A DNA stretch of 32,757 nt, taken from Candidatus Parcubacteria bacterium (GTDB taxonomy: Bacteria; Patescibacteriota; Minisyncoccia; Phycocordibacterales; Zambryskibacteraceae). Below the pieces are notes generated by a model that had not been told where the DNA came from, ran no database searches, and was given only the letters and a program-made list of their open reading frames with translations. Both the position numbers and the translations under genes were made by a program. Numbering within the stretch: position 1 is the stretch's first letter; the number at the start of each line of letters is the position of its first letter. The stretch is taken from contig JAIFWO010000005.1 in the NCBI GenBank assembly GCA_019661895.1, forward strand, positions 1 to 32,757, read 5' to 3'. Of this stretch, positions 7,087 through 31,895 are shown piece by piece.

Positions 7087-7098
7087 TATAATAATTAT
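7087..7098 (+). promoter_or_regulatory. Extended -10 promoter for the 7099 gene, leaderless geometry
   Basis: TGC-TATAAT, then 6 nt, then ATG; no SD. Confidence 0.65.
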
Positions 7099-7656
7099 AT
7101 GAAAAAGGCAGCGATTATCGTCGTACTTGTCGTTATTGCCGGTATTGGCGGTTGGTACCTTGGCCATAGGCGCGAGGCGACTTCCACTAAGCAAGAGCCG
7201 GTTAAAGTTGCGCCGACCGTGGATCACCCAGATGCTTCCAACGCTACGTTCTTATTTGAAGATGGTCCAGTCACCCTGAAAAAGGGTGCAGCTACTACCG
7301 ACGTCACTCCAAACGGCGAGGTCACTCAAGACACCACGCTTACCGACGACATTGCCTACGGAGATATTAATAAAGACGGCAAGACCGACACCGCCGTCCT
7401 CTTGGTACAGTCTGGCTCGGGCTCGGGGATCTTTCTATACGTTGGCGCCTATCTCTCTGGCGTGGTTACTTATAAGGGCTCGAACACGGTATTTATCGGA
7501 GACCGCGTCACACCGAAGAGTGTCTCAGTCGATAAAAGCGGCGTCATCACCGTCACCTATCTGGACCGCAGAGCCAATGAGCCTTTGGCCGCCGACCCCA
7601 CGGTCCTTACCACCAAGCGCTTCGTCTACGCCAACAGCCAGCTTGAAGAGAAATAG
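7099..7656 (+). CDS. Membrane-anchored hypothetical protein with DxNxDGxxD calcium-loop-like motif
   Basis: N-terminal TM (AAIIVVLVVIAGIGGWYLG); GDINKDGKTDTAVLLV. Confidence 0.7.
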   Translation: MKKAAIIVVLVVIAGIGGWYLGHRREATSTKQEPVKVAPTVDHPDASNATFLFEDGPVTLKKGAATTDVTPNGEVTQDTTLTDDIAYGDINKDGKTDTAVLLVQSGSGSGIFLYVGAYLSGVVTYKGSNTVFIGDRVTPKSVSVDKSGVITVTYLDRRANEPLAADPTVLTTKRFVYANSQLEEK

Positions 7657-7674
7657 AATCCGTGCTTTAATTGC

Positions 7675-9492
7675 ATGCCTATGGAAATTCGCAATATTGC
7701 AATTATCGCGCACGTCGACCACGGCAAGACCACTCTGACCGACGCCCTTTTGCGCCAGAACGGAATGTTCGAGGAGGGAGAGAGCATGGACTCCAACGCC
7801 CTCGAGAAGGAGCGCGGCATTACTATTTACTCCAAGAATACTTCCCTTTTCTATCCTTCGACAAGCTCAGGACGTGCCGTAACGAAGATTAATATCGTAG
7901 ACACGCCTGGCCACTCCGACTTCGGCTCTGAAGTCGAGCGTGTTTTGCGCTCAATCGACACAGTGCTCCTGGTCGTTGACGCTCAAGAGGGGCCTATGCC
8001 TCAAACGCGCTTCGTACTCAAGAAGTCCTTGGAGCTTGGCCTCAAGCCCATTGTCGTTATCAATAAAATAGACAAGCCCGCTGCTCGCCCCGACGCCGTA
8101 CACGAGATGGTCTTAGAACTTTTCTTAGAGCTTGGTGCGGGCAATGAGCAGATCGACTTCCCTACCGTTTACGCCATCGGCCGCGAGGGTATTGCTAAGA
8201 GGAATTTGAATGATGAGTCCAAAGACTTAACCCCTCTCCTCGACGTTGTACTTGAGCATGTGCCGGCGGTCCAAGCTGCGCTCGATGTCTCGGTGCGTCT
8301 GCAACCCTTCAACCTCGCCTACGACAACTTCCTCGGTCGCCTCGCCATTGCCCGCATCTATGAGGGCACGCTTAAGAATGGCCAAGAGGTCTGGGTCAAG
8401 AAACCTACGGGCGAAGTATATAAAGGCAAACTCACCAAGCTCTACACCTTCGAGGGCATTAAGCGCAAGGAAGTGCCGGAAGCGGTGGCAGGAGATGTCG
8501 TCATGATAGCCGGCTTGCCAGAGATCTACATAGGCGATACGGTCGCCGGCAGCGCCGAAGCCGAGGCTCTTCCAGCAATTAACGTCGACGAGCCGACTAT
8601 CTCGCTTAACTTCTTGGTCAATGACTCGCCCTTCGCCGGACGCGAGGGTAAGTTTGTAACAGGGCGCCAGATCAGAGAGCGCTTGGAGCGCGAACTTGAG
8701 GTCAACGTGGGTCTTAAAGTAGACTTCTCCTCCTCAGAATATCTGACGGTCTACGGGCGCGGCGAGCTCCACATCGCCATCCTCTGTGAGAATATGCGCC
8801 GTGAGGGCTTCGAACTCCAAGTCTCTCAACCTCACGTGATCATTAAGGAGGAAGAGGGCAAGAAACTCGAACCATTTGAGGAAGTGGTCATTGATGTGCC
8901 AGAGGAGATGAGCGGCACTATAATCTCTACTCTTACCTCGCGCAAGGCCCAACTCATGGATATGAAGAGTGAGCACGGGCAAACCAGAATTATTTTCGAG
9001 GCCCCCACCCGCGGACTCCTCGGCTATCGAGGACAATTCGTCGTCGACACGAAGGGCTTGGGCATCTTCTCCTCCCGCTTCACAGAATTTAAGAAATATG
9101 TTGGCGAGATCGAGCACAAGCACGTCGGCTCGATGATCTCCATGGAGAAGGGCAAGGTCTTAGCCTTCGCTCTCGACAACCTCCAGCAACGCGGCGTCCT
9201 CTATGTCGAACCGGGTTATGAGGTCTACGAGGGCCAAGTGATCGGTAACACTTCCAAGGGCGAGGACATGTACGTCAACCCGACCAAGGGCAAGCAACTC
9301 ACCAACATGCGTGCCTCTGGCTCCGACGACTCCGTCTACCTTGCTCCAGCCTTCAAACTCGATATCGAGAGAGCCATGGAAACCATGAACGAAGATGAAT
9401 ATATTGAAATTACTCCCTCCACCGTCCGCCTGCGCAAACAGATCCTTACTCAGCAAGAACGCGCGAAGGCTAGTAGAAAAGATTTAAAATAA
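7675..9492 (+). CDS. typA: Ribosome-associated GTPase TypA/BipA
   Basis: RNIAIIAHVDHGKTTL, INIVDTPGH, VVINKIDKP, TNMRASGSDD C-terminal signature. Contains a 7-aa insertion, PSTSSGR. Confidence 0.97.
   Translation: MPMEIRNIAIIAHVDHGKTTLTDALLRQNGMFEEGESMDSNALEKERGITIYSKNTSLFYPSTSSGRAVTKINIVDTPGHSDFGSEVERVLRSIDTVLLVVDAQEGPMPQTRFVLKKSLELGLKPIVVINKIDKPAARPDAVHEMVLELFLELGAGNEQIDFPTVYAIGREGIAKRNLNDESKDLTPLLDVVLEHVPAVQAALDVSVRLQPFNLAYDNFLGRLAIARIYEGTLKNGQEVWVKKPTGEVYKGKLTKLYTFEGIKRKEVPEAVAGDVVMIAGLPEIYIGDTVAGSAEAEALPAINVDEPTISLNFLVNDSPFAGREGKFVTGRQIRERLERELEVNVGLKVDFSSSEYLTVYGRGELHIAILCENMRREGFELQVSQPHVIIKEEEGKKLEPFEEVVIDVPEEMSGTIISTLTSRKAQLMDMKSEHGQTRIIFEAPTRGLLGYRGQFVVDTKGLGIFSSRFTEFKKYVGEIEHKHVGSMISMEKGKVLAFALDNLQQRGVLYVEPGYEVYEGQVIGNTSKGEDMYVNPTKGKQLTNMRASGSDDSVYLAPAFKLDIERAMETMNEDEYIEITPSTVRLRKQILTQQERAKASRKDLK
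7855..7875 (+). repeat. Candidate interspersed-repeat insertion in typA (CCTTCGACAAGCTCAGGACGT)
   Basis: 21 nt encoding PSTSSGR. Removing it restores the E. coli TypA spacing between NT and INIVDTPGH, as I recall that sequence. Confidence 0.6.
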
Positions 9493-9562
9493 AACTGCTG
9501 AGCTATTGCTATTGCTAGTAGTTGTGGTATAATACCAGCAGAACCCTTTCGCGGAGTTTGAG

Positions 9563-9997
9563 ATGTTCCTTCAAAAGCTCGAGGCGCGGTGGAGGTACTT
9601 ACTGCACTCCATCGCCGGAGCACTACTCGGTAGCGTATTGACCTTTCTCGCCTTGATGTTTGGCGAATCTGCGCAGAACGATTACAGATGGTTTGCTGGG
9701 TGGGAGTGGGTGTTGGTAGTAATATATGTAGCTACCTTCGTCCCCGCTGTTATCATTGTCTGGCAGATCGCGGCAGAGGAAAGCGGTTCTAAAAGCTTCT
9801 TCGCGGGAGTGGCAACGCCGCTACTCATGGTAATGTTATCGACTTTGCTCTGGATGCTTCTGCAATTCTTCGCCCTCCTTGTGCTCGGGTCGCTTGAATT
9901 TGCCAGAAGCTATCCGCTCGCTTTCATCATCGGGCTCTTGGTAATCGCTGGAGTTGCCCTGTACAGTCACAATCAACGTGCCGCTACTCATTCGTGA
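9563..9997 (+). CDS. Four-TM hypothetical membrane protein
   Basis: Multiple hydrophobic helices. Upstream TTGCTA-16-TATAAT and GGAG before ATG; strong terminator at the end. Confidence 0.7.
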   Translation: MFLQKLEARWRYLLHSIAGALLGSVLTFLALMFGESAQNDYRWFAGWEWVLVVIYVATFVPAVIIVWQIAAEESGSKSFFAGVATPLLMVMLSTLLWMLLQFFALLVLGSLEFARSYPLAFIIGLLVIAGVALYSHNQRAATHS

Positions 9998-10009
9998 GTG
10001 GCGGTTTTT
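9981..10009 (+). terminator. Intrinsic terminator
   Basis: CCGCTACTCA-TTCG-TGAGTGGCGG followed by TTTTT. Confidence 0.9.
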
Positions 10010-10748
10010 CTAATTTATATTCCCCTACCCTGGTACGCTTGATGGAGTAGGCCAGGGCGCTGGTGTCGAGGAGTTTGCCCATCTCATGTGCCAGGCTTCT
10101 TATATAAGTGCCGCTTGAGACACTCGCCTTAAAGCTTGAGACGAGCGCCATCTCACGCATATCAAGGGCTCCCTTCCATGTCTTGATAATCTCCTTTTGT
10201 CGAAAATCTCCATTCACCAAATTAATTTTGGAGACTATCTCCGGAAGTAGATCTATCTGCGATACAAGCCGCGTGTCACAATGCTCGATATTAAATATTT
10301 TGATACTGCGGGTAGGGATTTCTATTTCATCTATCTTCCCTTCTCGAGCCCAGGTATGCAGAGCTTTACCACCGACAGTGCGCGAGGAATAGGCGGGATA
10401 ACTTTGGGTCTTTTTCTTCTGAATATTCTCCAAAAGCTTTTCCATTTTGTAATCGAGCTTCGTCGGCATCGGTCCGGTGTCTGTCACCAAGCCCAATATG
10501 TCGTACGTATCTGTCTCGAATCCCCACAGCACCTCGAATTCATACTCCTTGTCCCATTCCAGATACTTCTTCTTATCTCTCGTATTCCCGGCCAAGACCA
10601 GGAGCAGACCCTCAGCCATCGGGTCAAGACGGCCCAAGTATGTCATAGGAATCTTCTCGTATCCCACGTGTTGTGCCTTAAAGCGCATGATGCACTCGAG
10701 GGGCGTATCTCCTAGATTCTTGTAAAGACTGATAATTTCTGGTTGCAT
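9984..10748 (-). CDS. truB: tRNA pseudouridine(55) synthase TruB
   Basis: IPMTYLGRLDPMAEGLLLVLAGNTRDKKKYLEWDKEYEF...; LDPMAEG catalytic motif; SGTYIRSLAHEMGKLL. Confidence 0.9.
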   Translation of the reverse strand: MQPEIISLYKNLGDTPLECIMRFKAQHVGYEKIPMTYLGRLDPMAEGLLLVLAGNTRDKKKYLEWDKEYEFEVLWGFETDTYDILGLVTDTGPMPTKLDYKMEKLLENIQKKKTQSYPAYSSRTVGGKALHTWAREGKIDEIEIPTRSIKIFNIEHCDTRLVSQIDLLPEIVSKINLVNGDFRQKEIIKTWKGALDMREMALVSSFKASVSSGTYIRSLAHEMGKLLDTSALAYSIKRTRVGEYKLEKPPLTNE

Positions 10749-10762
10749 AAATTTATGAAAAT

Positions 10763-10783
10763 GGCCCCGACTTGAGTCAGGGC
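10763..10783 (-). terminator. Terminator of the 10777 gene
   Basis: Minus strand: GGCCCTGACT-CA-AGTCGGGGCC then ATTTTC. Confidence 0.6.
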
Positions 10784-11274: not shown

Positions 11275-11322
11275 TCTGCACCCCCAACGTCTAGGTCACT
11301 GTTGACGTTCTTGTCTTTAATC

Positions 11323-11351
11323 ATTATACCCCACATATTTATACATTGCAA
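11323..11351 (-). promoter_or_regulatory. Promoter for the 10777..11274 gene
   Basis: Minus strand: TTGCAA - 17 nt - TATAAT. Confidence 0.6.
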
Positions 11352-11377
11352 ACGTACCGCAAACTCATTTAATCTGC

Positions 11378-11389
11378 TAAAATTCTTGC
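11378..11389 (+). promoter_or_regulatory. Extended -10 promoter for hisS, leaderless geometry
   Basis: TGC-TAAAAT, then 6 nt, then ATG; no SD. Confidence 0.6.
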
Positions 11390-12679
11390 ATGTCCAAACT
11401 TGATACCTCGCCCTACAAGGGCGTCCGCGACTTCTACCCCGAGGATCAGTTCATCCAAAATCATATCTCCGGAGTCTGGAGGAAGACCTTGGAGAGCTTC
11501 GGCTACAATGAGTACGGAGCCTCTATCCTTGAACCGGCGGAGCTCTACAAGGCTAAGACGGGAGAGGAGATCGTCAACGAGCAAACCTACACCTTCGTAG
11601 ACCGCGGCGAGCGCACCGTGACCTTGCGCCCGGAGATGACTCCGACGGTGGCTCGCATGGTAGCGGCGAGGCGCCGTGAGCTCGGCTTCCCCCTCCGATG
11701 GTACTCCATTCCTAACCTCTTCCGTTACGAAGCGCCCCAGAGAGGCCGTCTGCGAGAGCACTGGCAGTTGAATGTCGATCTCTTCGGCATGGAGGGCGTC
11801 GAGGCCGAGGTCGAGATCGTAAACATCGCTTATCGAATCATGCGTAACTTCGGCGCCGCCGACAAGGACTTCATCATCCGCCTCAACTCGCGCAAATTAG
11901 TCCAGAAGATCTACTCTCTCTTTGATATCAACGACGATAATATTCAGAAGGTCTCCAAACTTCTTGATAAGAAGGCGAAGATCAGCGAGGAGGAATTTGC
12001 TAAAGGTGTAAGAGAGATTGTAGGCGAGAACGCTGATGCCTTTATCGAACTGATAAACTCTCCCGATGAAATTTTTGAAAAGATCGGGAAGGAGAGTGCG
12101 GAGGTCAAAGAGATCTTTGCGGTAAGTGCCGCTCTCGAAGCTCTCGGCGTGACCAACATCACCTTCAACCAGACTCTCATGCGCGGCTTCGACTACTACA
12201 CAGGAGTAGTCTTCGAGGTCTTCGACACTCACAAGGACAATCCCCGTTCCCTCTTCGGGGGCGGGCGATACAACGAACTCCTCGCCCTCTTCGGCGACGA
12301 GGAGGTGGCAGCCTTCGGCTTCGGCGCGGGCGATGTGACCTTGAAGGACTTCCTCGAGACCCACCAGCTCCTTCCCGCCTACTCCTCAAGTACCCACGTC
12401 TATATTGCCACGCTCTCCAAGGAACATTATGCAGAGGTCGAGGGCGTAGCCACGAGGCTGCGTCAGGGCGGAGTCAATGTAGCCGTCGACTGGACAGGCC
12501 GGAAGGTCGGAGACCAGATCAAGACTGCTGACAAGCAGCACATTGAATTTGTCATGGTCGTCGGTGAGGACGAGATCGGGAGCGGAGTCTACAAGATCAA
12601 GAATATTCGCACCGGCGACGAGCTCTCCGTGCGCTTGGACGAGATAAACGATGTAATCCTCCCGAAGATACATAAATAA
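11390..12679 (+). CDS. hisS: Histidyl-tRNA synthetase
   Basis: GVRDFYPED, LRPEMTPTVARM, RYEAPQRGRLREHWQLNVDLFG, GRYNELLALFG. Confidence 0.97.
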   Translation: MSKLDTSPYKGVRDFYPEDQFIQNHISGVWRKTLESFGYNEYGASILEPAELYKAKTGEEIVNEQTYTFVDRGERTVTLRPEMTPTVARMVAARRRELGFPLRWYSIPNLFRYEAPQRGRLREHWQLNVDLFGMEGVEAEVEIVNIAYRIMRNFGAADKDFIIRLNSRKLVQKIYSLFDINDDNIQKVSKLLDKKAKISEEEFAKGVREIVGENADAFIELINSPDEIFEKIGKESAEVKEIFAVSAALEALGVTNITFNQTLMRGFDYYTGVVFEVFDTHKDNPRSLFGGGRYNELLALFGDEEVAAFGFGAGDVTLKDFLETHQLLPAYSSSTHVYIATLSKEHYAEVEGVATRLRQGGVNVAVDWTGRKVGDQIKTADKQHIEFVMVVGEDEIGSGVYKIKNIRTGDELSVRLDEINDVILPKIHK

Positions 12680-12680
12680 T

Positions 12681-13256
12681 ATGCGTAAAATAGTTTTCGA
12701 CATTGAGACTCGCAATGTGTTTGCTGACGTTGGCAAGAATGACCCGAGCCTCCTTGATATTGCTCTCGTGGCTATCCACGACTCCGAGACTGCTGAGTAC
12801 TCGACATATTTGGAGGAGGACCTTCCTAAACTCTGGCCCATCCTCGAGCGCTCGGACATGCTCATAGGTTTCAACTCCGAGCACTTCGACATCCCCCTCC
12901 TCAACAAATACTATCCAGGCGACCTCTCCAAATTGAAAAGCTTGGACATCTTGAAGGAAATCAAACAAACCTATGGCCGCCGGATGAAGCTCGATCAATT
13001 GGCACAAGGCACTCTTGGCAAGAATAAATCTGGCCACGGTCTAGACGCCATCCAATGGTGGAAGAATGGCGAAGTAGATAAGATCCGCGACTACTGTATA
13101 GACGATGTGCGGATCACCAAGGAACTCTACGACTACGCCCGCGCCAATAGCAAATTAATCTTCAAAGAAGGCAGCGAGCTCTTGGAGATCAAACTCGATT
13201 GCTCGAAGTGGGAGGAGCCTATCGAACATAAACTTACCTTTAGCCTGCCCTTCTAA
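12681..13256 (+). CDS. RNase H-like/DEDD 3'-5' exonuclease (YprB-type)
   Basis: IVFDIETRN..., LIGFNSEHFDIPLL, YCIDDVRITKELYDY. Confidence 0.85.
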   Translation: MRKIVFDIETRNVFADVGKNDPSLLDIALVAIHDSETAEYSTYLEEDLPKLWPILERSDMLIGFNSEHFDIPLLNKYYPGDLSKLKSLDILKEIKQTYGRRMKLDQLAQGTLGKNKSGHGLDAIQWWKNGEVDKIRDYCIDDVRITKELYDYARANSKLIFKEGSELLEIKLDCSKWEEPIEHKLTFSLPF

Positions 13257-13732: not shown

Positions 13733-13742
13733 TAAAATCGAT

Positions 13743-14453: not shown

Positions 14454-14489
14454 TTCATAGCTAGTATTACGAGGTGGAACCTTGTACAA

Positions 14490-14517
14490 AAAGAGCCTTA
14501 TTCCTAGGGCTTTTTCT
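14490..14517 (+). terminator. Terminator, possibly bidirectional
   Basis: AAAAAGAGCCTTA-TTCC-TAGGGCTTTTT. Confidence 0.6.
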
Positions 14518-14966: not shown

Positions 14967-14977
14967 GGTGCTTTTTT
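14953..14977 (+). terminator. Intrinsic terminator
   Basis: GCACCC-N7-GGGTGC followed by TTTTTT. Confidence 0.85.
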
Positions 14978-17933
14978 AATCGACGATAAGGACATCGCGG
15001 AGTTTGCAGTACTCGCACTCCGGATCATGGCATTTGTTGCCCCAGAAGGTGAAGTTTCTAATCTCGTCCGTCACGCGGATGATCTCGCGCTCGATGTTCT
15101 CGGCGTCCTCGTGGGACATTCCGAATTCCTCTTCTTGGATCCTGCCTTTCTCGTCCGGCTCGGTGAAGAGAATAGCTCCGCGTGTCATCTCATACTTGCC
15201 GTTGTCATAGAGCTCGAGGAGGAGGCGGTAGAAGTCGAGTTGCCGCTTCTCGGCCCCGGTGGCATTGGCCGTCTTCCCCATTAATTCGTTCCTGGTCTTC
15301 GGCGAACCGGTTTTATAATCCACCACTCGCACCTCCCGCTCTCCATGGATCTCAAGTTTATCCAAGCGGCCTTTGATGGTAACGCGCTCCATCTCGCCAA
15401 GCGGCACGAATACTCCGCTAATCTTAAATTCGGCAAAGGAATTCTTGTGCCAGGTAGGGACCTTCTCCTTCCAGAAGGCCTCGACAACTTTTTTGCCTTT
15501 CTTCATAGCCTCTTTGAATTCTTGGTCGGTGAAGGGCTGTCTCTGTAAGCGCTTCTCGAAGGCTTTGAAGAAGTCGCCCTCGGACATCTCTCTCCCCAGG
15601 CGCAAGCTGTTGGTCAGCTGAGAGAGCGCATCGTGGACTGCAAGGCCAAACATCTCACTCCTCCCTTGCGTATGCGGAACGCAGAGCAAATTCTCGAAGA
15701 AGTACTTCCACGGACACTCGATATAATTATTTAAAGACGTAGCGCCCAAGCCTTGCTCGAAGAAGATGTCCCGCAAGTAATCCTTATCCCAAACGGTGCG
15801 CTCGCGAGTAAGATGGCGTTCGACTTTGCGCAAGACGTCCTCGCTCACGTCCGTACTTTGGCCCTCCTCCCGCACTACAAGATCTTTCGGCAGCTCCTCG
15901 ACGAAGCGCGAGAGTACTTGCTCGCGGCCGTCCCCTCGGATATGCGAGTGAGTAATGACAATCCTCTCTCTAGCGCGAGTCAGCGCCACATAGAAGAGTC
16001 TGCGCTCATCCTCCTCTTGGCCCGACTGATGCGCCGAGCCAAGCGGGAACGGGAGACGGAAGGAGAGCTGTGAGCGCTTATTGCCCCACACGCCGTCGAC
16101 CGCATGAGGGATGATTATGGTCTGCCACTCAAGACCCTTCGACTTATGCGCGGTCATGATCGACACACTCTTCTCTCTCGGCAATCTGGCGCTCCAGGAG
16201 AGGCGCCCGCCATGTTCGCGCAAGGTCTCAATATCGAGGAGGAAATCTCTGAGGGTTAGCGTCTTCTTGTGAGCTTGGCGCGAGGCAATCTCCTGGTATA
16301 AAGCGCTTAACAGAGCCATTTTTTGGATAGATTCGGGCAGAGTCAGGAGATGCTCCGTTAATCCAGACTCACTGACAATGGCGGTGAAAGAATCTAAAGC
16401 TCCTTCATTGCGTACAAGCGTCACGAAGCCAGAGAACTTTTGGGCGAAGGCGGGATCACTCTCCTTCACCACATCAAGGAGGCTGGCGCGCTCGAAGTAT
16501 GCACGACGAAGCATGCGTGTGCTCTCGATCGGATCAATTTTGAGAAAGTTTATAAACAACACTTCTCCAAGCAAATGCTCGTCGGTCGGATTGGCTACTG
16601 CGGAGAGGAGGAGCATGAGTTTGGCCACATCCTTGTCCTCGAGAACATCCTCGTCTTGGAAGAGGTTCGTCGGCACGCCGCGCTCCATGAGGGAGCGTCC
16701 AAGCTCGGTCGTCTCTCTGTTGGTGCGAGTGAGGATAGCGATCTCTTCGGGGTTCGTACCATCCTTAATGAGCCTTTCGACTTCGTCAATGATCCCCTCG
16801 CGCTCATCACGCTCAGTTTTGAAGCTCACTATCCGCACGCTCCCGGGCTCGCGCTCTGACTTGGCAAGAAGGCGCGGACGCAAGGCCTTGTCTCCAGGCA
16901 AGACTTCCGCCAAGGCATGTGAGATGTCTAAGATCTCTTGGGTGGATCGATAATTCTCATCGAGGTAGATGAGTTTGGCTGTTGGGAATTTGCTTTTGAA
17001 GTACAAAAAGTTTTCCAGAGAAGCTCCCTGGAAGCGGTAAATGGCCTGCTTCTCATCTCCGACGATGAAGAGGTTGGGTTCCTCGAAGTAGCCTGCCAAT
17101 TTTTCTAAAATGCCGTTTTGGGCGTTGTTGGCATCCTGGTGCTCATCGGCCAGGAAGTACAAGTGCTCTTCCTGGAGGGTTTGCAGGAGGTCCGGCTCGC
17201 GCTTGAAGGCCCGCAAGAGTTCCAAGAGCATGTCGTCGAAGTCGTATAAATTCTCCAGGGCGAGAGCCTCTTCGTACATTTTGTAGACTGCCACGAGCTC
17301 GCGATTCTTTTTGTTGCTCCTAAGGACAGTCTTGTAGGCGCTCTTCATCTCGCCTTTGTACTTGCCCTTCTCATGATAGACGTCTTCGTGGGCAAGGATA
17401 TCCTTTTCCTCTTTGTCCAAGACTTTTATAAAATCTTTGGGAGTAAGGGCGTCGCGCTTGAGGTCAGAGATAGTATGCAATATGCTCTTAACGTAGAAGT
17501 ATGGCGCGCCGAAGGGCTTGATAAATTCGAATTCATTTTCATCAATGATCTTTTCAATAATGGAAAGCTTCTCTGCTTCGGTGGCCACGTCGCCTCCGAT
17601 AATGCGCGGGAAGGATTCCGAGTAACGGCCGATGACCTCCTGAGCAAAGCCGTGGAAGGTATAGAGGCCGACTCGATAAGCCGCGGGGCCGATGAGTTGG
17701 ACGAGCTTGCGGCGCATCGAGGCCACGGCGGATTCGGTGAAGGTGAGCGCCAAGATGCCGTCGGGCGGCGTGTCGGTGGTGCGTAGGATCTGGGCGATGC
17801 GCAGGGTAAGCACAGTGGTCTTGCCGGTACCCGGACCGGCGATGACCATGACCGGACCCTCGATAGTGTCTACCGCCTTCTTCTGACGCGCATTTAGGCC
17901 TTTGTAGAGCCGTAAGAAGAGATCATCTGCCAT
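14976..17933 (-). CDS. UvrD/PcrA-type superfamily 1 helicase with C-terminal RecB/AddB-like (PD-(D/E)XK, probable Fe-S) nuclease
   Basis: GPGTGKTTVLTLRI, DDMLLELL, VGDEKQAIYRFQGA, MTAHKSKGLEW, ALTRARERI. C-term CPWKYFFENLL, GLAVHDAL, VDYKTG, CHDPECEYC. Confidence 0.95.
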   Translation of the reverse strand: MADDLFLRLYKGLNARQKKAVDTIEGPVMVIAGPGTGKTTVLTLRIAQILRTTDTPPDGILALTFTESAVASMRRKLVQLIGPAAYRVGLYTFHGFAQEVIGRYSESFPRIIGGDVATEAEKLSIIEKIIDENEFEFIKPFGAPYFYVKSILHTISDLKRDALTPKDFIKVLDKEEKDILAHEDVYHEKGKYKGEMKSAYKTVLRSNKKNRELVAVYKMYEEALALENLYDFDDMLLELLRAFKREPDLLQTLQEEHLYFLADEHQDANNAQNGILEKLAGYFEEPNLFIVGDEKQAIYRFQGASLENFLYFKSKFPTAKLIYLDENYRSTQEILDISHALAEVLPGDKALRPRLLAKSEREPGSVRIVSFKTERDEREGIIDEVERLIKDGTNPEEIAILTRTNRETTELGRSLMERGVPTNLFQDEDVLEDKDVAKLMLLLSAVANPTDEHLLGEVLFINFLKIDPIESTRMLRRAYFERASLLDVVKESDPAFAQKFSGFVTLVRNEGALDSFTAIVSESGLTEHLLTLPESIQKMALLSALYQEIASRQAHKKTLTLRDFLLDIETLREHGGRLSWSARLPREKSVSIMTAHKSKGLEWQTIIIPHAVDGVWGNKRSQLSFRLPFPLGSAHQSGQEEDERRLFYVALTRARERIVITHSHIRGDGREQVLSRFVEELPKDLVVREEGQSTDVSEDVLRKVERHLTRERTVWDKDYLRDIFFEQGLGATSLNNYIECPWKYFFENLLCVPHTQGRSEMFGLAVHDALSQLTNSLRLGREMSEGDFFKAFEKRLQRQPFTDQEFKEAMKKGKKVVEAFWKEKVPTWHKNSFAEFKISGVFVPLGEMERVTIKGRLDKLEIHGEREVRVVDYKTGSPKTRNELMGKTANATGAEKRQLDFYRLLLELYDNGKYEMTRGAILFTEPDEKGRIQEEEFGMSHEDAENIEREIIRVTDEIRNFTFWGNKCHDPECEYCKLRDVLIVD

Positions 17934-17945
17934 GCCTGTATTATA
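17934..17945 (-). promoter_or_regulatory. -10 element for the helicase gene, leaderless geometry
   Basis: Minus strand: TATAAT-ACAGGC-ATG; no SD. Confidence 0.6.
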
Positions 17946-18049: not shown

Positions 18050-18268
18050 ATGCTTGCTAGAATCATTTGCGCCCTGTTCGCAGTCATTGGTTTCTTAAAG
18101 ACTGCCAAGTATGCATTTCGCGTTTGGGATCACATCACAGAACCACAAGGAGTTATGGTGGTGCTCGGTGTGGTGCTGACGGCGGTTTGCATTGCTGGGG
18201 CACTCCTCTTCCCAATCAGCCCCGCATCAACCAAAACACTGGCGGATTGCGAATGGACTGGAAATTAG
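18050..18268 (+). CDS. Small two-TM membrane protein (unit 1)
   Basis: MLARIICALFAVIGFLKTAKYAF...VMVVLGVVLTAVCIAGALLFP. AGGAG SD before ATG 18050. The longer track ORF start (17993) lies inside the promoter. Confidence 0.75.
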   Translation: MLARIICALFAVIGFLKTAKYAFRVWDHITEPQGVMVVLGVVLTAVCIAGALLFPISPASTKTLADCEWTGN

Positions 18269-18282
18269 GCATCCCAAACCTC

Positions 18283-18320
18283 GCCCCGAGCGCTATACGC
18301 GACTCGGGGCTTTCGCTTTT
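18283..18320 (+). terminator. Intrinsic terminator (unit 1)
   Basis: GCCCCGAG-N12-CTCGGGGC then TTTCGCTTTT. Confidence 0.85.
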
Positions 18321-18330
18321 ATAGTAGTGC

Positions 18331-18358
18331 TTGACAATACAAATATATCTAGTATAAT
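18331..18358 (+). promoter_or_regulatory. Sigma70-type promoter (unit 2)
   Basis: TTGACA - 16 nt - TATAAT. Confidence 0.85.
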
Positions 18359-18403
18359 TAATATAGACTGTTTTATCCCGTTAGCTCATCCACAGGAGAG
18401 CAC

Positions 18404-18625
18404 ATGATTCCCGCTTACAAATTCTTCCAACACGCCGTCGGATCTCTGGTTGCAATGGTACTTTTGGTCGCCCTCTGTATGTCCAATAGCACCACTAGCA
18501 CAATCAGCGAAGTCATCTTCTGGGTTGAAATCATCGGCGTACTAACACTTGGAGTCCTGCTATACATCCATTGCCGCAATCGTTGGCAGCTCATGCTCAA
18601 AGAAATTCGAACCGCCCGCACCTAG
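18404..18625 (+). CDS. Small two-TM membrane protein (unit 2)
   Basis: MIPAYKFFQHAVGSLVAMVLLVALCM...VIFWVEIIGVLTLGVLLYIHC. AGGAG SD. Confidence 0.75.
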   Translation: MIPAYKFFQHAVGSLVAMVLLVALCMSNSTTSTISEVIFWVEIIGVLTLGVLLYIHCRNRWQLMLKEIRTART

Positions 18626-18658
18626 CATCTTGCCACCGACTATAGCAAGTCAAGACTC

Positions 18659-18694
18659 GCCCCGACACACTCAGGTGTTGGGGCTTTTGTTTTC
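18659..18694 (+). terminator. Intrinsic terminator (unit 2)
   Basis: GCCCCGACAC-N6-GTGTTGGGGC then TTTTGTTTTC. Confidence 0.85.
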
Positions 18695-18696
18695 TA

Positions 18697-18724
18697 TTGA
18701 AGTGTGATTAAGTATGCATAGACT
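18697..18724 (+). promoter_or_regulatory. Probable promoter (unit 3)
   Basis: TTGAAG - 16 nt - TAGACT. Confidence 0.5.
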
Positions 18725-18765
18725 TATCGATAGTTTTCGACATGTACCGATAACTCGGAGGATAT

Positions 18766-19026
18766 ATGTTCGCAAAAACCTACCTCTTCGTCTCTCTGAT
18801 CATCGGGATTGGTACTATGGTCTGGACAATATGGAGGATCGTGAAGTTTCGATCACCAAAGAGGGTTATTACCGGCGGCTTTGCTCTTGTACTCTTCTTC
18901 TGCATCATGACAATAGTTGCACAAGGGAGCCTAGAGAACGCCGAGTGGTACCTCTTGCCGATATGCTTCCCGATTCTCGCTGGACTGGCCGATAAGGTTT
19001 CTGGCCGACATCTGTATCGACTGTGA
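18766..19026 (+). CDS. Small three-TM membrane protein (unit 3)
   Basis: Hydrophobic segments YLFVSLIIGIGTMVW, GGFALVLFFCIMTIVA, YLLPICFPILAGLA. GGAGG SD. Confidence 0.75.
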   Translation: MFAKTYLFVSLIIGIGTMVWTIWRIVKFRSPKRVITGGFALVLFFCIMTIVAQGSLENAEWYLLPICFPILAGLADKVSGRHLYRL

Positions 19027-19049
19027 CCTCTCTGCTTGAGAGGTCTTTT
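19025..19049 (+). terminator. Intrinsic terminator (unit 3)
   Basis: GACCTCTC-TGCTT-GAGAGGTC then TTTT. Confidence 0.85.
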
Positions 19050-19116
19050 AATAAATGAATTTGTAAATCGTCAGTTATACTTAGACAAGACGCCGCCACT
19101 CGAGCTTGGAGGTAAC

Positions 19117-19437
19117 ATGCTGTTCATAATAGCTATCGCCGACATCAGCGCAGTAATCTTTACTTTGTCCGCACTTTTCTATTTTGCTGACGCTAGGCGA
19201 CTTCATGATGGAAGACCGTTGCCTGATATCCGCAGTTCCAACTGGACTACGATTTTGAGTATCGGATGGGTTGTAGTCCTTACACTCTGCAGTATTGCTG
19301 CAATTGTGGGCATCTACATGCCAAGCAAGTCCGGGCCGAGGCTCATATCGTGTCTGGCACCAATCTCGATCATGCTCGTCGGCACGTTGGGTGTATACAT
19401 GGCAAATCGAAAGAGCCGTCCCTCCCCTAGCTCATAG
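19117..19437 (+). CDS. Small three-TM membrane protein (unit 4)
   Basis: MLFIIAIADISAVIFTLSALFYF...ILSIGWVVVLTLCSIAAIVGIYM...ISIMLVGTLGVYMA. GGAGGT 3 nt before ATG 19117; TATACT at 19076. Confidence 0.75.
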   Translation: MLFIIAIADISAVIFTLSALFYFADARRLHDGRPLPDIRSSNWTTILSIGWVVVLTLCSIAAIVGIYMPSKSGPRLISCLAPISIMLVGTLGVYMANRKSRPSPSS

Positions 19438-19448
19438 TGGAGGTTTTT
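19421..19448 (+). terminator. Intrinsic terminator (unit 4) containing the stop codon
   Basis: CCTCCcCTA-GCTCA-TAGtGGAGG then TTTTT. Confidence 0.6.
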
Positions 19449-20676
19449 AATACCCTCTCAATCTATTAATCTTTTCGTGTTGTCTTATTTTCTCGTGGGC
19501 TTTGGCTTCAATCTGGCGGATGCGCTCGCGGGTGACGCCGAAGACTTTGCCGACTTCTTCGAGAGTATGAGTGTAACCATCTATGAGGCCGTGGCGCATT
19601 TCAAGAATCTTGCGCTCCTTAGGGGGAAGATCGCCAAGAATTTCTTTGACTTGATCTTGGATGATGCGTCGCGAGGACTCTTCCGCCGGCGAGAGGATCT
19701 TATCATCTGCTAGGAAATCTCCAAGCTTACTCTTGCCATCGTCGCCCTCATCCCCCACCGGACTCTCGAGGGAGACGGTCGATTGGTCGATCTTCTCGAT
19801 CTGGTAGATCTTCTCGACATCTAAATTCATCTCGAGGGCGATCTCCTCAGGCAAAGGCTCGCGGCCAAGGTCTTGGGTCAGCCGCCTGACTACCTGCTTG
19901 TACTTGGCAATAGTCTCGACCATGTGCACCGGCACGCGGATAGTGCGCGACTGGTCGGCCAAGGCTCGAGTGATGGCCTGACGGATCCACCAAGTGGCAT
20001 AGGTGGAGAATTTGTATCCCTTAGTCCAATCAAATTTATCAACTGCTTTAAAGAGACCGAGATTCCCCTCTTGGATAAGGTCGAGAAGGGTAAGGTCGGG
20101 AGAGCGGTTGGCATACTTCTTGGCGATAGAGACGACTAAGCGCAGGTTGGCCTTGGCCAGAAGGTTCTTGGCCTCGATATCTCCCGCTTCGATCCGCTTG
20201 GCAAGCTCCTTCTCCATCCCGCCGGAGATAAGCGGGTATTGGCCAATCTCCTTCAAGTACATTTGGATCGAGTCGTAGGCGGAGTCGGACTTCGAATAAT
20301 ATTTCTTATCATCGTCGGGCGTAGGCACCTCCAAGAGACCGCCACCTTCCATGACGTCAACGCCGGCCGTGTGCATCTTGGCATACAGTTCATCCAAGAG
20401 AGCCAGGTTCTCCTCGATAGTCGGGAACTCCTTCAAAATCTCATCGTAGGTGACAAAGCCGCGCTCCTTGCCTCTGCCAAGCAGGCGGTTCAAGCGGTTG
20501 AGCTCGTCTTGAGCCTTCTTGGTCAGGGGCTTGGCTTTGATCTTTACTTGCTTTACTTTCTTTACAGAAATCTTTTTTGCCTTTTTGGAAACTTTTTTAG
20601 CCGCGCCCTTTTTGGCTGCTCTCTTCGAGCTTACCTTCGGCTTATTCTTTTGTTTTTTGGTCTTTGCCATTAACAT
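19447..20676 (-). CDS. rpoD: RNA polymerase primary sigma factor (sigma70), Lys-rich N-terminus
   Basis: Region 2 [57 protein letters not shown]; region 4 [14 protein letters not shown]. Start could be the second Met at 20670. Confidence 0.97.
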
Positions 20677-25892: not shown

Positions 25893-25896
25893 ATAG

Positions 25897-28800
25897 TTAT
25901 TCGTTAGTGGATTCGCGGGTATCTCTCCTTTTCTTTGCCTCGATGTCTAGGGCCAGACCGCGCAGGTTATTGATGAGCACATTGAACGAGGCCGGGATGC
26001 CAGGTTCCTGGATCTTCTCGCCCTTCACGATCGAGTCGAAGGCGGCCGAGCGGCCTTGGATATCGTCTGACTTGATGGTGAGCATCTCGCGCAGAGTATG
26101 ACCCGCACCGTGACCGAGGAGGGCCCACACTTCCATCTCTCCGAATCTCTGGCCTCCGTTTTGAGCCTTTCCTCCGAGAGGCTGCTGGGTAATGAGCGAG
26201 TACGGTCCGATGGAGCGCATGTGGATCTTGTCCTCGACCATGTGGTGGAGCTTCAAGATATACATGTAGCCGACGGCGATATCTTGCTGGAATTCCTCTC
26301 CCGTGCGGCCGTCGAACAATTTCATCTTCCCATTTTCTTTGTATCCGGCTTTGACCAGTTCTTGCTTGATCTCCGCGTCAGTAGCACCGGCAAATGGAGG
26401 CACGATGGCTTGGTAGTTAAGGGTGTTCGCTGCTAGACCAAGATGGAGCTCCAAGATCTGACCCAAGTTCATGCGTGAGGGCACGCCGAGCGGAGTCAAG
26501 ATGATGTCGATCGGCGTTCCGTCGGCCATGTATGGCATATCCTCTACCGGCAAGATCTTTGAAATGACACCCTTGTTGCCATGGCGTCCGGCGAGCTTGT
26601 CTCCGACTGAGACATTTCTAAGTTCTGCCACTTGGATGTGGATCTGCTTCAAGATCCCTGAGTCGAGTTTGTCGCCCTTCTCTCTCGAGAAGACTTGGAC
26701 CGAGATGACCCGACCTCGCTTGCCTCCCTCCATGCGCTTGGAAGTATCCTTGACGTCGCGGGCCTTCTCACCGAAGAGAGACCTGAGGAGACGCTCTTCC
26801 GGAGTCAGCTGAGACTCGCCCTTAGGAGTGATCTTGCCTACCAAGATGTCGCCCGGTCGCACTTCCGCACCGACGCGAATGACGCCGTCCTCGGCAAGAT
26901 TCTTGAGTTTGCCCTCGCCGACATTTGGGATATCGCAAGTCGTCACCTCCGGACCGAGCTTGGTGTCGCGGACGTTGACGGTGAAGTCCTCAATATGCAC
27001 CGAGGTAAACTTCGATTCCTTGACGAGTCGCTCCGAGAGGATGATGGCGTCTTCGTAATTGGCCCCGCTCCACGACATGAAAGCTACCAAGATATTTTGT
27101 CCGAGAGCGATCTGGCCGTGCTCCGAGGAAGAGGTGTCTGCCAAGATATCACCCTTCTTAACCTTCTGCCCAGTCTCAACCGATGGGCGCTGGTGGAAAG
27201 AGGTAAAGCCGTTGGTCATCGAGAAGTTCACCAGCGGGAAGACGTGCTCCTTATCCTTATCGTCCCTCATCTTAATGAGCTTGCCGTCAACATAAGTGAC
27301 AGTGCCGGAAGCGGGAGCAATGACCAAGCGGCCAGTGTCTCGAACCGCCTTCTCCTCTATGCCAGTAGCTACGAGAGGTGCCTCGGGGATGATGCACGGT
27401 GTGCCTTGGCGCTGCATGTTCGAACCCATGAGCGCTCTGTTGGCGTCGTCGTGGTTTAAGAATGGGATAAGAGAGGTCGAGGTCGAGAAGGCTTGGTTGG
27501 TGGCCACGTCTATGTAGTGCACGTCGGCTCGACGCACGCTGTGAGGCTCGCCCTTATGACGAACATCGACAATGTCGGGCATAATTTTACCGTCCTCAAC
27601 ATGCGTAGCTGCGTGAGCAATGTTAAATTGCTCTTCCTCGAGGGCGTTTAAGAATTTAATTTCATTGGTGATCATACCGTCTACCACCTTGGCATAAGGA
27701 GTCTCGATCATGCCGAAGCTGTTGACGCGCGCATATGTGGAAAGGCGCAAGATCAGACCGATGTTCGGACCTTCCGGAGTACAGATCGGACAAAGACGTC
27801 CGTAGTGCGAGGGGTGCACGTCGCGGACTTCGTATCCGGCTCGGGCGCGGTTGAGGCCTCCCGGACCAAGGGCCGACATAGTGCGCAAGTGCTCAAGCTC
27901 CTCAAGAGCATTGGTCTGCTGCATGAATTGGCTAAGCTGGTTAGTCGTGAAGAATTCCTTCATGCGAGCCTGCAAGGGCTTAGGAGAGATGAATTGCACC
28001 GGCAGCGTCACATCGGTGTCGATAGTCGACATCCTGTTTTGGATATTCCTCTTGATCTGGGCCATACCAACACGGATCTTCTGCTGGAAGAGCTCTCCCA
28101 CGAAGCGCACGCGGCGACTCCCGAGGTGATCGATGTCATCGGGCTCCGAACCGGGAGTGGTGCAGAGAGTAATGATGTGAGAGATGATGGTGATGATGTC
28201 TTCAGTCGAGAGGGTGCGGCGGTCCATCTCCTTCTCCGTCTGCTTCATCTCGAAGCGATTGTTGAAGCGGAAGCGTCCAACGCGAGAGAGGTCGTAGCGC
28301 TCCGTGTCGAAGATCGAACGGACGAATTCACGGGCATTGTCAGCCGCAGCCAAGTCGCCGTCTCGCAACCTCTTGTGGATCTCGATAGCGGCTTCATCCA
28401 CGCTCGTGGTGTGGTCCTTGGCCAAGGTCTTCTCGATATAGACGCGAGCTTCCGGCTGTCCGTCGAAAAGGGAGAGAATCTTCTCGTTGGTGGCAGCGCC
28501 GAAGGCGCGGAAAAGCGTCGTCACAGGGAACTTGCGTTTGCGATCGATACGGACGTAGATGACATTGTCGGCATCGGTCTCGAACTCGATCCAAGCGCCG
28601 CGGCCAGGGATGATCTTGGCACCGAAGGTCTTCTTGCCCTTCACTTCCGCGGCGGTGAAGAACACGCCGAAGGAGCGCGCCAGCTGAGGCACGACTACAC
28701 GTTCGATACCCGAGATGATGAAGGTGCCGTGGTCCGTCATGAGCGGGAAGTCCGCCATGAAGAGTTCTTGCTCCTTCTCGGTCTTCTGGATGAAGTTCTT

Positions 28801-29106
28801 TAAACGGATCTTGACCTTGAGAGGCGCCTCATATGAGAGCTTCTTCTCCTTGGCCTCGTACTCGCTCATCTTTGGCTTCTCAAGCTCGAAGCCGACGAAA
28901 TCTAATTGAAACTTCCTTTCGGAAAAGTCTTTGATCGATGAAAATTCTTCAAATACCTCCTTCAGCCCGCTCTCGATGAGCCACTTGAAGGAGTCCACCT
29001 GCGAGATGACCAGATTTGGCATCTCTGTAAGCGGCTTGCGGAAACGGCCGAAATACTTCTTCTCCCGCGGTCCGGAAGCAGCCCGCGCAGCAGTTTTTTG
29101 TACCAT
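25897..29106 (-). CDS. rpoB: RNA polymerase beta subunit
   Basis: SQFMQQTNALEELEHLRTMSALGPGGLNRARAGYEVRDVHPSHYGRLCPICTPEGPNIGLI; KLAGRHGNKGVISKILP. Confidence 0.99.
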   Translation of the reverse strand: MVQKTAARAASGPREKKYFGRFRKPLTEMPNLVISQVDSFKWLIESGLKEVFEEFSSIKDFSERKFQLDFVGFELEKPKMSEYEAKEKKLSYEAPLKVKIRLKNFIQKTEKEQELFMADFPLMTDHGTFIISGIERVVVPQLARSFGVFFTAAEVKGKKTFGAKIIPGRGAWIEFETDADNVIYVRIDRKRKFPVTTLFRAFGAATNEKILSLFDGQPEARVYIEKTLAKDHTTSVDEAAIEIHKRLRDGDLAAADNAREFVRSIFDTERYDLSRVGRFRFNNRFEMKQTEKEMDRRTLSTEDIITIISHIITLCTTPGSEPDDIDHLGSRRVRFVGELFQQKIRVGMAQIKRNIQNRMSTIDTDVTLPVQFISPKPLQARMKEFFTTNQLSQFMQQTNALEELEHLRTMSALGPGGLNRARAGYEVRDVHPSHYGRLCPICTPEGPNIGLILRLSTYARVNSFGMIETPYAKVVDGMITNEIKFLNALEEEQFNIAHAATHVEDGKIMPDIVDVRHKGEPHSVRRADVHYIDVATNQAFSTSTSLIPFLNHDDANRALMGSNMQRQGTPCIIPEAPLVATGIEEKAVRDTGRLVIAPASGTVTYVDGKLIKMRDDKDKEHVFPLVNFSMTNGFTSFHQRPSVETGQKVKKGDILADTSSSEHGQIALGQNILVAFMSWSGANYEDAIILSERLVKESKFTSVHIEDFTVNVRDTKLGPEVTTCDIPNVGEGKLKNLAEDGVIRVGAEVRPGDILVGKITPKGESQLTPEERLLRSLFGEKARDVKDTSKRMEGGKRGRVISVQVFSREKGDKLDSGILKQIHIQVAELRNVSVGDKLAGRHGNKGVISKILPVEDMPYMADGTPIDIILTPLGVPSRMNLGQILELHLGLAANTLNYQAIVPPFAGATDAEIKQELVKAGYKENGKMKLFDGRTGEEFQQDIAVGYMYILKLHHMVEDKIHMRSIGPYSLITQQPLGGKAQNGGQRFGEMEVWALLGHGAGHTLREMLTIKSDDIQGRSAAFDSIVKGEKIQEPGIPASFNVLINNLRGLALDIEAKKRRDTRESTNE

Positions 29107-29124
29107 GCAATATGAAACTAGCTT

Positions 29125-29150
29125 GTAAAGTCTCTCTCCTTAAACTTTAC
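29125..29150 (-). promoter_or_regulatory. rpoB 5' leader hairpin with SD-like loop
   Basis: Minus strand: GTAAAGT-TTAAGGAGAGAG-ACTTTAC. Confidence 0.6.
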
Positions 29151-29186
29151 TTCTGGTCGTGACTCAATCAGTTCGAAGTTAAGAGT

Positions 29187-29215
29187 AGTGTAACCTATCC
29201 CCTCTTTTGTGTCAA
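29187..29215 (-). promoter_or_regulatory. rpoB promoter
   Basis: Minus strand: TTGACA - 17 nt - TACACT. Confidence 0.75.
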
Positions 29216-29244
29216 TAAAAAGACTGCCATTGTTAAGCAGTCTT
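29216..29244 (-). terminator. Terminator of the 29233 gene, abutting the rpoB promoter
   Basis: Minus strand: AAGACTGC-N9-GCAGTCTT then TTTATT running into TTGACA. Confidence 0.8.
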
Positions 29245-29565
29245 GCGAACTTTGAACTTCTCGCGCCGGGCGATCGCTTCGGGCGAGACAAGGATAACCT
29301 TCCATCCAGCTCGGCGATATACTTCGCCCATAGCCCATCTCCCCATGTTAGTAAACATCCACTGAAAGATAGTGGCAGCTACCCGCGCTTGAATTCGGGC
29401 AAGCCATCGTCGTCTGGCGAGCTTTACCACACCTTCTGGTTTCCAAGCTCGCTCTTCCTCCCAGAACTTAGCAGCGATCCGCTCAAGTTCTCCCTGCGGA
29501 TCGCTTATCTTTGTGCGATCAAATCGGTAGCTACGATGCACAAGGGTCGGATGTTTTGCTGGCAT
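29233..29565 (-). CDS. Hypothetical protein, about 110 aa
   Basis: SD GAGGAG before ATG 29565 (MPAKHPTLVHRSYRFDRTK...). The longer track start overlaps the upstream gene. Confidence 0.65.
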   Translation of the reverse strand: MPAKHPTLVHRSYRFDRTKISDPQGELERIAAKFWEEERAWKPEGVVKLARRRWLARIQARVAATIFQWMFTNMGRWAMGEVYRRAGWKVILVSPEAIARREKFKVRKTA

Positions 29566-29575
29566 ACTACTCCTC

Positions 29576-30178
29576 TTAGATTGATGGTTTGGTAGCCAAT
29601 CGCGTTTCTTTTTCTCTAAGCAGCTCTTGGAGGCTAAACCTGTCAGCATCCAGCCACTCCGGCAGAGGTAGGAGCTCTATAGCTGCCTCGAGCATTCGAT
29701 TATCAAGGGACCTGCCATACGAGGTCCCGCCGAGATCGTGTGATTGCCACAACTGACGAAGCAAGAGGCGCGCCAGAAGTGCGTCGCTTAAAGATTCGAG
29801 GCTATACTCCCGTTCTGGCATCCGCATAGGTCTCGTTTCATTATCAAGATCAATGGCAATTGCGAGGACCATGAGCGCATTGCGCACCCTAGGGCTCGAC
29901 CCTCCACCAAAACCTGTGCGAAAACAGTGTGTTGTGGAAAGTGAATGTTCATCCAAATGTGAATCGAAGAATACATCCCCTGCCCTCGATCCCATATCGC
30001 CAACAAAGACAGAGATGGTATTGCCTAATCCGTCATCATCGTCACTACGGCGTGTATAGAATTTGCCAGCCTTCAAGGTTTTAGGCCAGAAAAGGCTATT
30101 AAGGAGGATGCCAATAACCTCATCCTCATGGTCGTGAATCACCTTGGCGAGTGTAGTGGCTCGTTTCTTAGGCTTCAC
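29576..30178 (-). CDS. Hypothetical protein, 200 aa, GTG start
   Basis: GGGAG 6 nt before GTG; forms a two-gene unit with 29233..29565. Confidence 0.65.
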   Translation of the reverse strand: MKPKKRATTLAKVIHDHEDEVIGILLNSLFWPKTLKAGKFYTRRSDDDDGLGNTISVFVGDMGSRAGDVFFDSHLDEHSLSTTHCFRTGFGGGSSPRVRNALMVLAIAIDLDNETRPMRMPEREYSLESLSDALLARLLLRQLWQSHDLGGTSYGRSLDNRMLEAAIELLPLPEWLDADRFSLQELLREKETRLATKPSI

Positions 30179-30204
30179 AAAGATCTCCCGTTGAGTCTAA
30201 GAGT

Positions 30205-30233
30205 AGACTACGCTTCTATCTTGTAAGTGTAAA
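30205..30233 (-). promoter_or_regulatory. Putative promoter of the two-gene unit, overlapping the capA-like 3' end
   Basis: Minus strand: TTTACA - 17 nt - TAGTCT. Confidence 0.5.
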
Positions 30234-31223
30234 CACCCCATCGACATCGACGCTTTTTGCCAGATCTACGGGAAGTTCGGAGGTGAGAATATTAGTGCGG
30301 ATTTGGAAGGCTTCCTTCTCTGGAAAGTATAATTTACTGCGGAGCATTTCAATGCCGATAAGATGAAAAGTTTCTGTGGAAGGGCCAAGCTCAAGCCGCA
30401 CTGCTAAGCCTTGCCGAGTAGCCAGTGAGAAGTCCTGATCGAAGATGAAGTTACCAAGAGAATAGAAGATGGCCTTGTCTTTATAGATCTCGATCGGCTC
30501 GATGACGTGCGGATGCGCACCGATAACCAGATCGGCACCCGCATCCACGAACCTATGCGCCTCACGTTTCTGATCCGTACTCTCTGTAGTCGAGTACTCG
30601 ACTCCCCAATGCGCAAAGACTACTACAAAGTTGCAATTCGGTTTAAGCCGCGTGATTTCTAGAACGACAGGCTGCGTATCTTCTTTATAAAGCGCGTGAT
30701 AGCCGACGAAGCAAATATTTTGCCCTTTTACCTCTACTTGCTTAGAAACAGTAATGTCATTGGACGGCGAACCGAAAGAGAAGAGGCCAGCGGACGAAAG
30801 GTTAACTTGAGTGGTAAGGAACCCCTCCGTGCCAAAGTCGAGCGCGTGATTGTTGGCTAGCGAGAAGCCGGTGAAGCCAAGGTCCTTAAGTTCAAGGGCG
30901 ACAGACGGATCGAAGGTGAAGTGGAGATTACCATGATCCTTGACTGACACCGAGGGGTTGGCAGTGATAGTCCCTTCCAGATTCCCTACTGCCATATCGA
31001 TATTTTCAAAAATATTTTTAACCTCTTCGAAGACACTCGCGAATCCGTTCTTATCTATCGTGGTCCTCACCACTCGATCGAGCATGATGTCTCCAACGAA
31101 GAGTATTTGGATCGGCTCCTCATCTTTTATTTCAAAATTCCTGGTCGGCGCATAAGTCGAGCCGGCAACCAGGATCGCGATGAGGGCAATACAGATGGCT
31201 AAAATAATTTCTTTACTTTTCAC
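30216..31223 (-). CDS. CapA/PgsA-family metallophosphoesterase-like protein, membrane anchored
   Basis: ILFVGDIMLDRVV, SLANNHALDFGTEG, VVVFAHWGVEYS, DLVIGAHPHVIEPIE, YSLGNFIFDQ. GTG start at 31223 overlaps the trmD end; the longer track ORF intrudes into trmD. Confidence 0.92.
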   Translation of the reverse strand: MKSKEIILAICIALIAILVAGSTYAPTRNFEIKDEEPIQILFVGDIMLDRVVRTTIDKNGFASVFEEVKNIFENIDMAVGNLEGTITANPSVSVKDHGNLHFTFDPSVALELKDLGFTGFSLANNHALDFGTEGFLTTQVNLSSAGLFSFGSPSNDITVSKQVEVKGQNICFVGYHALYKEDTQPVVLEITRLKPNCNFVVVFAHWGVEYSTTESTDQKREAHRFVDAGADLVIGAHPHVIEPIEIYKDKAIFYSLGNFIFDQDFSLATRQGLAVRLELGPSTETFHLIGIEMLRSKLYFPEKEAFQIRTNILTSELPVDLAKSVDVDGVFTLTR

Positions 31224-31860
31224 GGCGCTTTTTCTTCCATTCCTCGATCTTTTTATGATCCCCGCCCAGAAGCACTTTGGGCACACGATACTTCTTACCC
31301 TTATATTCAAAGACCTCCGGACGGGTATATGAATCTCCTCCCACTCTCTTCTCTTCCAAGGAGTCGAAGTTGCCCAAGACCCCTTCGACCTGCCTCGACA
31401 TGACATCAATGAGGATCATGGCTGGCAACTCTCCTCCTGTAAGTACGAACGGACCTATAGAAACTTCCTCCATCTTAAATATTTTCTTCACTCTTGCATC
31501 AATACCCTCATAGCGGCCTGAAACGATAATCACATCGCTAAACTTCTTAGCCGTTTTCGCCGCGTATTCGTTGGTAAATTGCTTACCACTTGGCGAGAGT
31601 AGAATTATTTTATATTTCTTATTTTTTATTTTCTTTATTGCTCCATCAATAGCTTTAGCTACAGGCTCGGCTTGGATGACCATGCCAGGTCCGCCGGCGT
31701 AGGGTGGACGGTCAATACGCTTCCATTTATCTTTAGTAAAATCGCGAGGATTATAGAAGCTCACTTTGATCTTCTTATCTTCAATAGCCCGCTTCAAGAT
31801 CGACTCGCCGAGGTAGGAGTCGAAGGCTTTTGGGAAAAGGGTGACGATATGGAAATGCAT
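31213..31860 (-). CDS. trmD: tRNA (guanine37-N1)-methyltransferase
   Basis: MHFHIVTLFPKAFDSYLGESILKRA, DRPPYAGGPGMVIQAEP, VSGRYEGIDARV, SIGPFVLTGGELPAMILID. Confidence 0.97.
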   Translation of the reverse strand: MHFHIVTLFPKAFDSYLGESILKRAIEDKKIKVSFYNPRDFTKDKWKRIDRPPYAGGPGMVIQAEPVAKAIDGAIKKIKNKKYKIILLSPSGKQFTNEYAAKTAKKFSDVIIVSGRYEGIDARVKKIFKMEEVSIGPFVLTGGELPAMILIDVMSRQVEGVLGNFDSLEEKRVGGDSYTRPEVFEYKGKKYRVPKVLLGGDHKKIEEWKKKRREK

Positions 31861-31866
31861 AGACAC

Positions 31867-31895
31867 AAACTAGCACTAATTTCCCTACTTGACAA
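31867..31895 (-). promoter_or_regulatory. Putative trmD promoter
   Basis: Minus strand: TTGTCA - 17 nt - TAGTTT (TGC extended), 6 nt to ATG. The -10 is weak (3/6). Confidence 0.45.

Follow-up and report, generated by a model that had tools for sequence, protein, structure and literature searches.

Leaderless initiation in bacteria is usually regarded as minor. TA-led leaderless genes have been described in several phyla, in a 2011 list that does not include CPR/Patescibacteria (Zheng 2011, PMC3160421), and leaderless genes of Deinococcus-Thermus are the subject of a more recent paper (Zhong 2025, PMC12340547). The genes considered here resemble the TA-led genes of Actinobacteria and Deinococcus-Thermus in that TAnnnT or TATAAT precedes the start codon by about 10 nt and a Shine-Dalgarno (SD) sequence is lacking. 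The share of TA-led genes is sizeable there, about 20% and about 40% in Zheng 2011 (PMC3160421), as it is here. A TG precedes the box in our genome and is likewise reported in some low-GC genomes (PMC3160421; PMC12340547). The host differs from these systems in being a reduced genome of 621 kb whose relatives lack an anti-SD. In a literature search conducted largely outside subscription journals no report of leaderless genes in CPR was found, and this absence is weak evidence. The kind of gene is already known; the novelty lies in the host group, in the scale and in the anti-SD background.

Two other bodies of work bear on this background. Loss of CCUCC in SD-scarce organisms was described by Amin 2018 (PMC6107228), and a table of genomes lacking CCUCC already contains single CPR genomes, namely Campbellbacteria, Wolfebacteria, SR1 and Peribacter (PLoS One 2024, PMC10783764). 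Our case may be like these SD-scarce organisms (PMC6107228; PMC10783764), since the tail after helix 45, here that of relatives, is without CCUCC and called genes have almost no SD, although a set of 69 ORFs carries a strong one; unlike those surveys, we have traced the loss over 90 genomes of one class and set it against an index of leaderless genes. Flavobacterium is reported to keep its anti-SD and to choose starts by mRNA structure and nearby bases (PMC6847099). Little or no SD use is common to Flavobacterium and to our genome, which has instead a promoter at the start codon. Among the recognisable start signals of this Paceibacteria genome the predicted leaderless arrangement predominates, and the 16S rRNA of its relatives lacks the partner for an SD. 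This affects gene prediction, wherever start calling presumes SD motifs, as well as the heterologous expression of CPR genes. It also bears on how and why bacteria give up SD, since a class in which tails may be intact, partial or lost offers a natural series.

The genome comprises 621,001 bases in 33 contigs, rejoined from stretches, and is 98.9% complete. The window, that is, the whole stretch of 32,757 nt first inspected, is one entire contig (C24). Gene starts were taken from a home-made caller, a simple hexamer model blind to upstream motifs, which yielded 538 genes. The closest named relatives of the HisS protein are Parcubacteria (Paceibacteria; Zambryski-, Taylor- and similar candidate groups). 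A first-pass annotation of the window had pointed to four genes at which a -10-like hexamer lies 6 nt before the ATG. All four hexamers and their gaps are present at the positions given (Table 1), and reading of the sequence agrees that no SD precedes any of them. TGC stands before three of the hexamers, as claimed, and the helicase hexamer has CGT instead. By reading, TATTAA is also there at 3418 and at 20670, the sites of the two weaker candidates; these were left out of the counts because the final T of TAnnnT is missing.

Table 1. Features of the window discussed in the text.
Position	Strand	Feature	Sequence or evidence
7084-7101	+	Extended -10 TGC-TATAAT, 6-nt discriminator and ATG of the 7099 gene; predicted leaderless	motif span 7087-7101, TATAATAATTATATG
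7099-7656	+	7099 gene: 185-aa protein with hydrophobic N-terminus, without Pfam family	
11375-11392	+	Extended -10 TGC-TAAAAT, 6-nt discriminator and ATG of hisS; predicted leaderless	motif span 11378-11392, TAAAATTCTTGCATG; kept by hisS orthologs
11390-12679	+	hisS, histidyl-tRNA synthetase	tRNA-synt_His, 1.4e-44
14976-17933	-	UvrD/REP helicase fused to PD-(D/E)XK nuclease (AddA/RecB-like)	
17931-17945	-	-10 TATAAT, 6-nt discriminator and ATG of UvrD-type helicase; predicted leaderless	TATAATACAGGCATG
18050-19437	+	Four small ORFs (18050-18268, 18404-18625, 18766-19026, 19117-19437), each with leader and GGAG-type SD	
19447-20670	-	Primary sigma factor, regions 1.1, 1.2, 2, 3 and 4; weak TATTAA-N6-ATG at its own start	
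31213-31860	-	trmD, tRNA (guanine-N1)-methyltransferase; ATG at 31860 is the family start	
31858-31872	-	-10-like TAGTTT, preceded by TGC (31873-31875), 6-nt discriminator and ATG of trmD	TAGTTTGTGTCTATG
31890-31895	-	-35-like TTGTCA, 17-nt spacer to TAGTTT (trmD)	sequence and orthologs
31950-32033	+	Small SD-led ORF (AGGAGG) with TTGACA ... TATAAT promoter and leader	sequence

Two of the start codons can be placed by protein alignment. The alignment of TrmD to solved TrmD structures begins at its residue 1, so an in-frame GTG six bases further upstream is not needed, and HisS can be aligned to solved HisRS from residue 3. Among the 24 called genes of the window TAnnnT stands at -12 in 4, exactly the four noted; with a background rate of 2% at each position, P is 0.0011.

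The annotation had proposed a genome-wide histogram of motif position as the check on its reading. A lack of enrichment at -12 would have counted against that reading, but the histogram has a tenfold peak exactly there: TAnnnT occupies that position in 105 of 525 genes and each other position in about 10. TATAAT occurs at -12 in 24 genes (background 0.7) and TGnTAnnnT at -15 in 42 (background about 1). An unbiased k-mer scan returned TGCTA at -15, TATA at -12 and ATAAT at -11 as the top upstream k-mers. The signal is restricted to real starts, for among all ATGs TAnnnT at -12 marks 101 of 477 called starts versus 186 of 17,758 others (odds ratio 25; Fisher P = 1.6e-87). Whether the first ATG of the ORF or the best-scoring start is chosen, the same 105 hits are obtained, and the peak is therefore not created by start prediction. 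A shoulder of -10 boxes extends over gaps of 7 to 9 nt, with the mode at 6, and the excess over background amounts to about 18% of genes if only gap 6 is counted and to about 29% if gaps 6 to 9 are taken together. In the analysed half of a genome of the same genus, G003, the corresponding values are 20% and 34%. None of the genes with TAnnnT at -12 has a strict SD, and about half of all genes have neither signal.

The spacing is also conserved between genomes. Across the order, 11 of 15 orthologs of the helicase have the hexamer at a gap of exactly 6, and hisS has a -10 box at gaps of 5 to 10 in 58 of 78 orthologs, where 11.7 would be expected, with the peak at 6. TATAATN6ATG recurs in all eight same-genus genomes examined, with a sum of 264 occurrences versus 30 for the reversed pattern. 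The weakest case among the four sites is trmD, in which gap 6 is kept in just 5 of 30 orthologs; in three genomes of the genus (L212, L217 and L220) TTGTCA lies 17-18 nt before a TANNGT-type hexamer, as it does before TAGTTT in the window.

The -12 peak, together with the geometry kept in the helicase and hisS orthologs, supports the leaderless interpretation offered by the annotation, and the sites are very probably promoters of leaderless transcripts. RNA polymerase carrying the primary sigma factor would recognise an extended -10 element (TGnTATAAT) that ends 6 nt before the ATG and is usually accompanied by a weak -35 or by none. Transcription would then start at the A of the ATG or within about 3 nt of it, the 5' end of the mRNA would be the start codon itself, and the ribosome would bind the 5'-AUG directly, without SD pairing. 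The sigma factor encoded in the window has the regions that should in principle enable it to recognise the -10 and the -35 as well as the extended -10. A -35-like match of at least 4/6 accompanies 27 of the 105 boxes, compared with 12% in offset controls. This is about twice background, and some sites are therefore ordinary promoters that merely sit close to a gene; since just 27 have such a match, most would depend on the -10 or extended -10. On this sequence evidence, in about a fifth to a third of genes the promoter is so close that the mRNA should begin at the start codon or within about 3 bases of it. Because promoters abut the starts in this way, and because the ribosomes of relatives lack the usual sequence on which an mRNA docks, much gene expression probably bypasses the SD route.

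Three other explanations deserve consideration. The annotation had selected its examples, and in the window itself a blind count of TANNNTN6ATG gives 9 occurrences, close to the 9.9 expected. If this were all, the four sites could be ascribed to chance and a biased choice. The agreement with expectation means, however, that the raw motif is not rare and that the signal consists in its coincidence with gene starts; at that level the odds ratio above and a genome-wide binomial P of about 1e-70 refute chance, and we give it practically no weight. A priori, the AT-rich block might instead be a signal for translation, unstructured or Kozak-like in the manner of Flavobacterium, on transcripts with normal leaders. 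Such a signal would be useful in a group whose relatives have no anti-SD, and an A/T bias is indeed found directly upstream of operon-internal starts as well. However, what is found at -12 is a promoter hexamer, with TG exactly at -15, and its spacing is fixed across orthologs. Furthermore, a translation signal should be equally common at all genes, whereas the gap-6 box is present in only 3 of 66 genes (5%) that overlap an upstream gene. It is present in 33 of 122 (27%) where the upstream neighbour is divergent and in 32% of genes lying 9-40 nt behind their upstream neighbour. We therefore consider a translation signal improbable. It is about equally improbable that these genes have very short leaders of 1-5 nt in place of truly leaderless mRNAs: the shoulder at gaps 7 to 9 would fit such leaders, but the mode is at gap 6, from which the usual spacing of 6 nt would put +1 on the A of the ATG.

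The annotation had also suggested, from strong GGAGG sites in the window, that two modes of initiation may coexist, and this holds only in part. The sites exist: GGAGG or AGGAG precedes 69 ORFs of 50 aa or more at SD distance, which exceeds the number for permuted motifs. A second general mode fares less well. In called genes the excess of GGAG at -13 to -7 is 2.1% here and 0.4% in G003, and relatives lack CCUCC; for these reasons we assign the GGAGG sites of the window to a small, mostly orphan set of ORFs. The 69 ORFs are short (median 125 aa), and in the analysed half of G003 a relative was found for 4 of them, versus 229 of 515 other genes. The GGAG sites at 18050-19437 belong to this set, and by reading the AGGAGG at 31950 is similar. 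Among SD-led ORFs with a -10 candidate, 28 of 52 also have a -35 match; several of those in the window have TTGACA/TATAAT promoters. A phage origin was considered for the small SD-led ORFs and set aside, since comparison with PHROG gave no noteworthy match. G003 has a smaller residue of AGGAG/GGAGA, though its 16S has no CCUCC.

Within operons a further pattern is apparent. At same-strand junctions the commonest arrangement is stop-N-ATG (gap +1), with 37 instances, followed by the -4 overlap with 21 and the -1 overlap with 13; the -4 overlap is the usual junction type. This predominance suggests that operon-internal genes are coupled by re-initiation. The junction of hisS with the next gene, at 12679-12681 in the window, is an example of stop-N-ATG.

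In E. coli the tail of 16S rRNA after helix 45 reads GGAUCACCUCCUUA. In relatives from the same genus it is GGAGUAAUUCAAUUUGAA, without CCUCC; tails in the order resemble it, and CCUCC is missing from the same-genus, same-family and same-order genomes in which the 16S 3' end was read. The exception within the order is G217, in which a second tail, close to the start of a contig, is intact; this may be contamination. The genome's own 16S is absent from this assembly: a tail of GGAGUAAUUCAA would support loss of the anti-SD, and CCUCC would contradict it and explain the SD-led ORFs. A new SD complementary to the altered tail was also considered, but a k-mer scan upstream of genes found no enrichment of pieces of TTGAATTAC. 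An ad hoc string rule, applied to 90 genomes of the class, scored the anti-SD as intact in 27 of them, as partial in 21 and as lost in 42, and the lost tails differ widely in sequence. The CCUCC core is retained by nearly all genomes sampled outside the class.

Expressed as median log2 forward/control, the leaderless index is 0.80 in genomes with an intact anti-SD, 1.70 with a partial and 1.65 with a lost one. Enrichment is thus higher without the anti-SD (P = 6e-5 when every genome counts, 0.036 when each family contributes a single value), an association that is suggestive, as the statistics carry no phylogenetic correction. Four further genomes, with 130-200 kb analysed in each, point in the same direction: the excess at gaps 6 to 9 is 18% and 28% in two that have lost the anti-SD and 13% and 9% in two in which it is intact. 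As a class-wide index of SD use, the forward/reversed ratio of GGAGGN{5,8}ATG did not separate intact from lost genomes (P = 0.12); reversing the pattern controls poorly for codon effects, and gene-start histograms were used instead. Loss of ribosomal protein bS21 was dropped as a correlate because matches to the Pfam model were weak and uneven (92 of 142, 38 over the cut-off). In our genome bS21, at G000:C6:34684-34791, is a weak match below the Pfam cut-off, as it is in many class members.

Leaderless enrichment is found also in many genomes outside the class in which the anti-SD is intact, and leaderless genes therefore probably preceded its loss. A tentative scheme, which we regard as quite possible without favouring it, is that in Paceibacteria the ribosome dropped the anti-SD repeatedly over a background of already common leaderless genes. 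Leaderless initiation and short-gap (stop-N-ATG) coupling would then carry most translation, and the leftover SD-led ORFs would be a young, mostly orphan set translated otherwise or poorly. Over the phylum as a whole the excess of TATAATN6ATG is present in many genomes and absent from some. Other families, f57 for example, have none, and the strongest excess in the phylum sample is that of G145, G190 and G316 (family f49), outside the class, with 113-124 occurrences versus 8-14 for the control.
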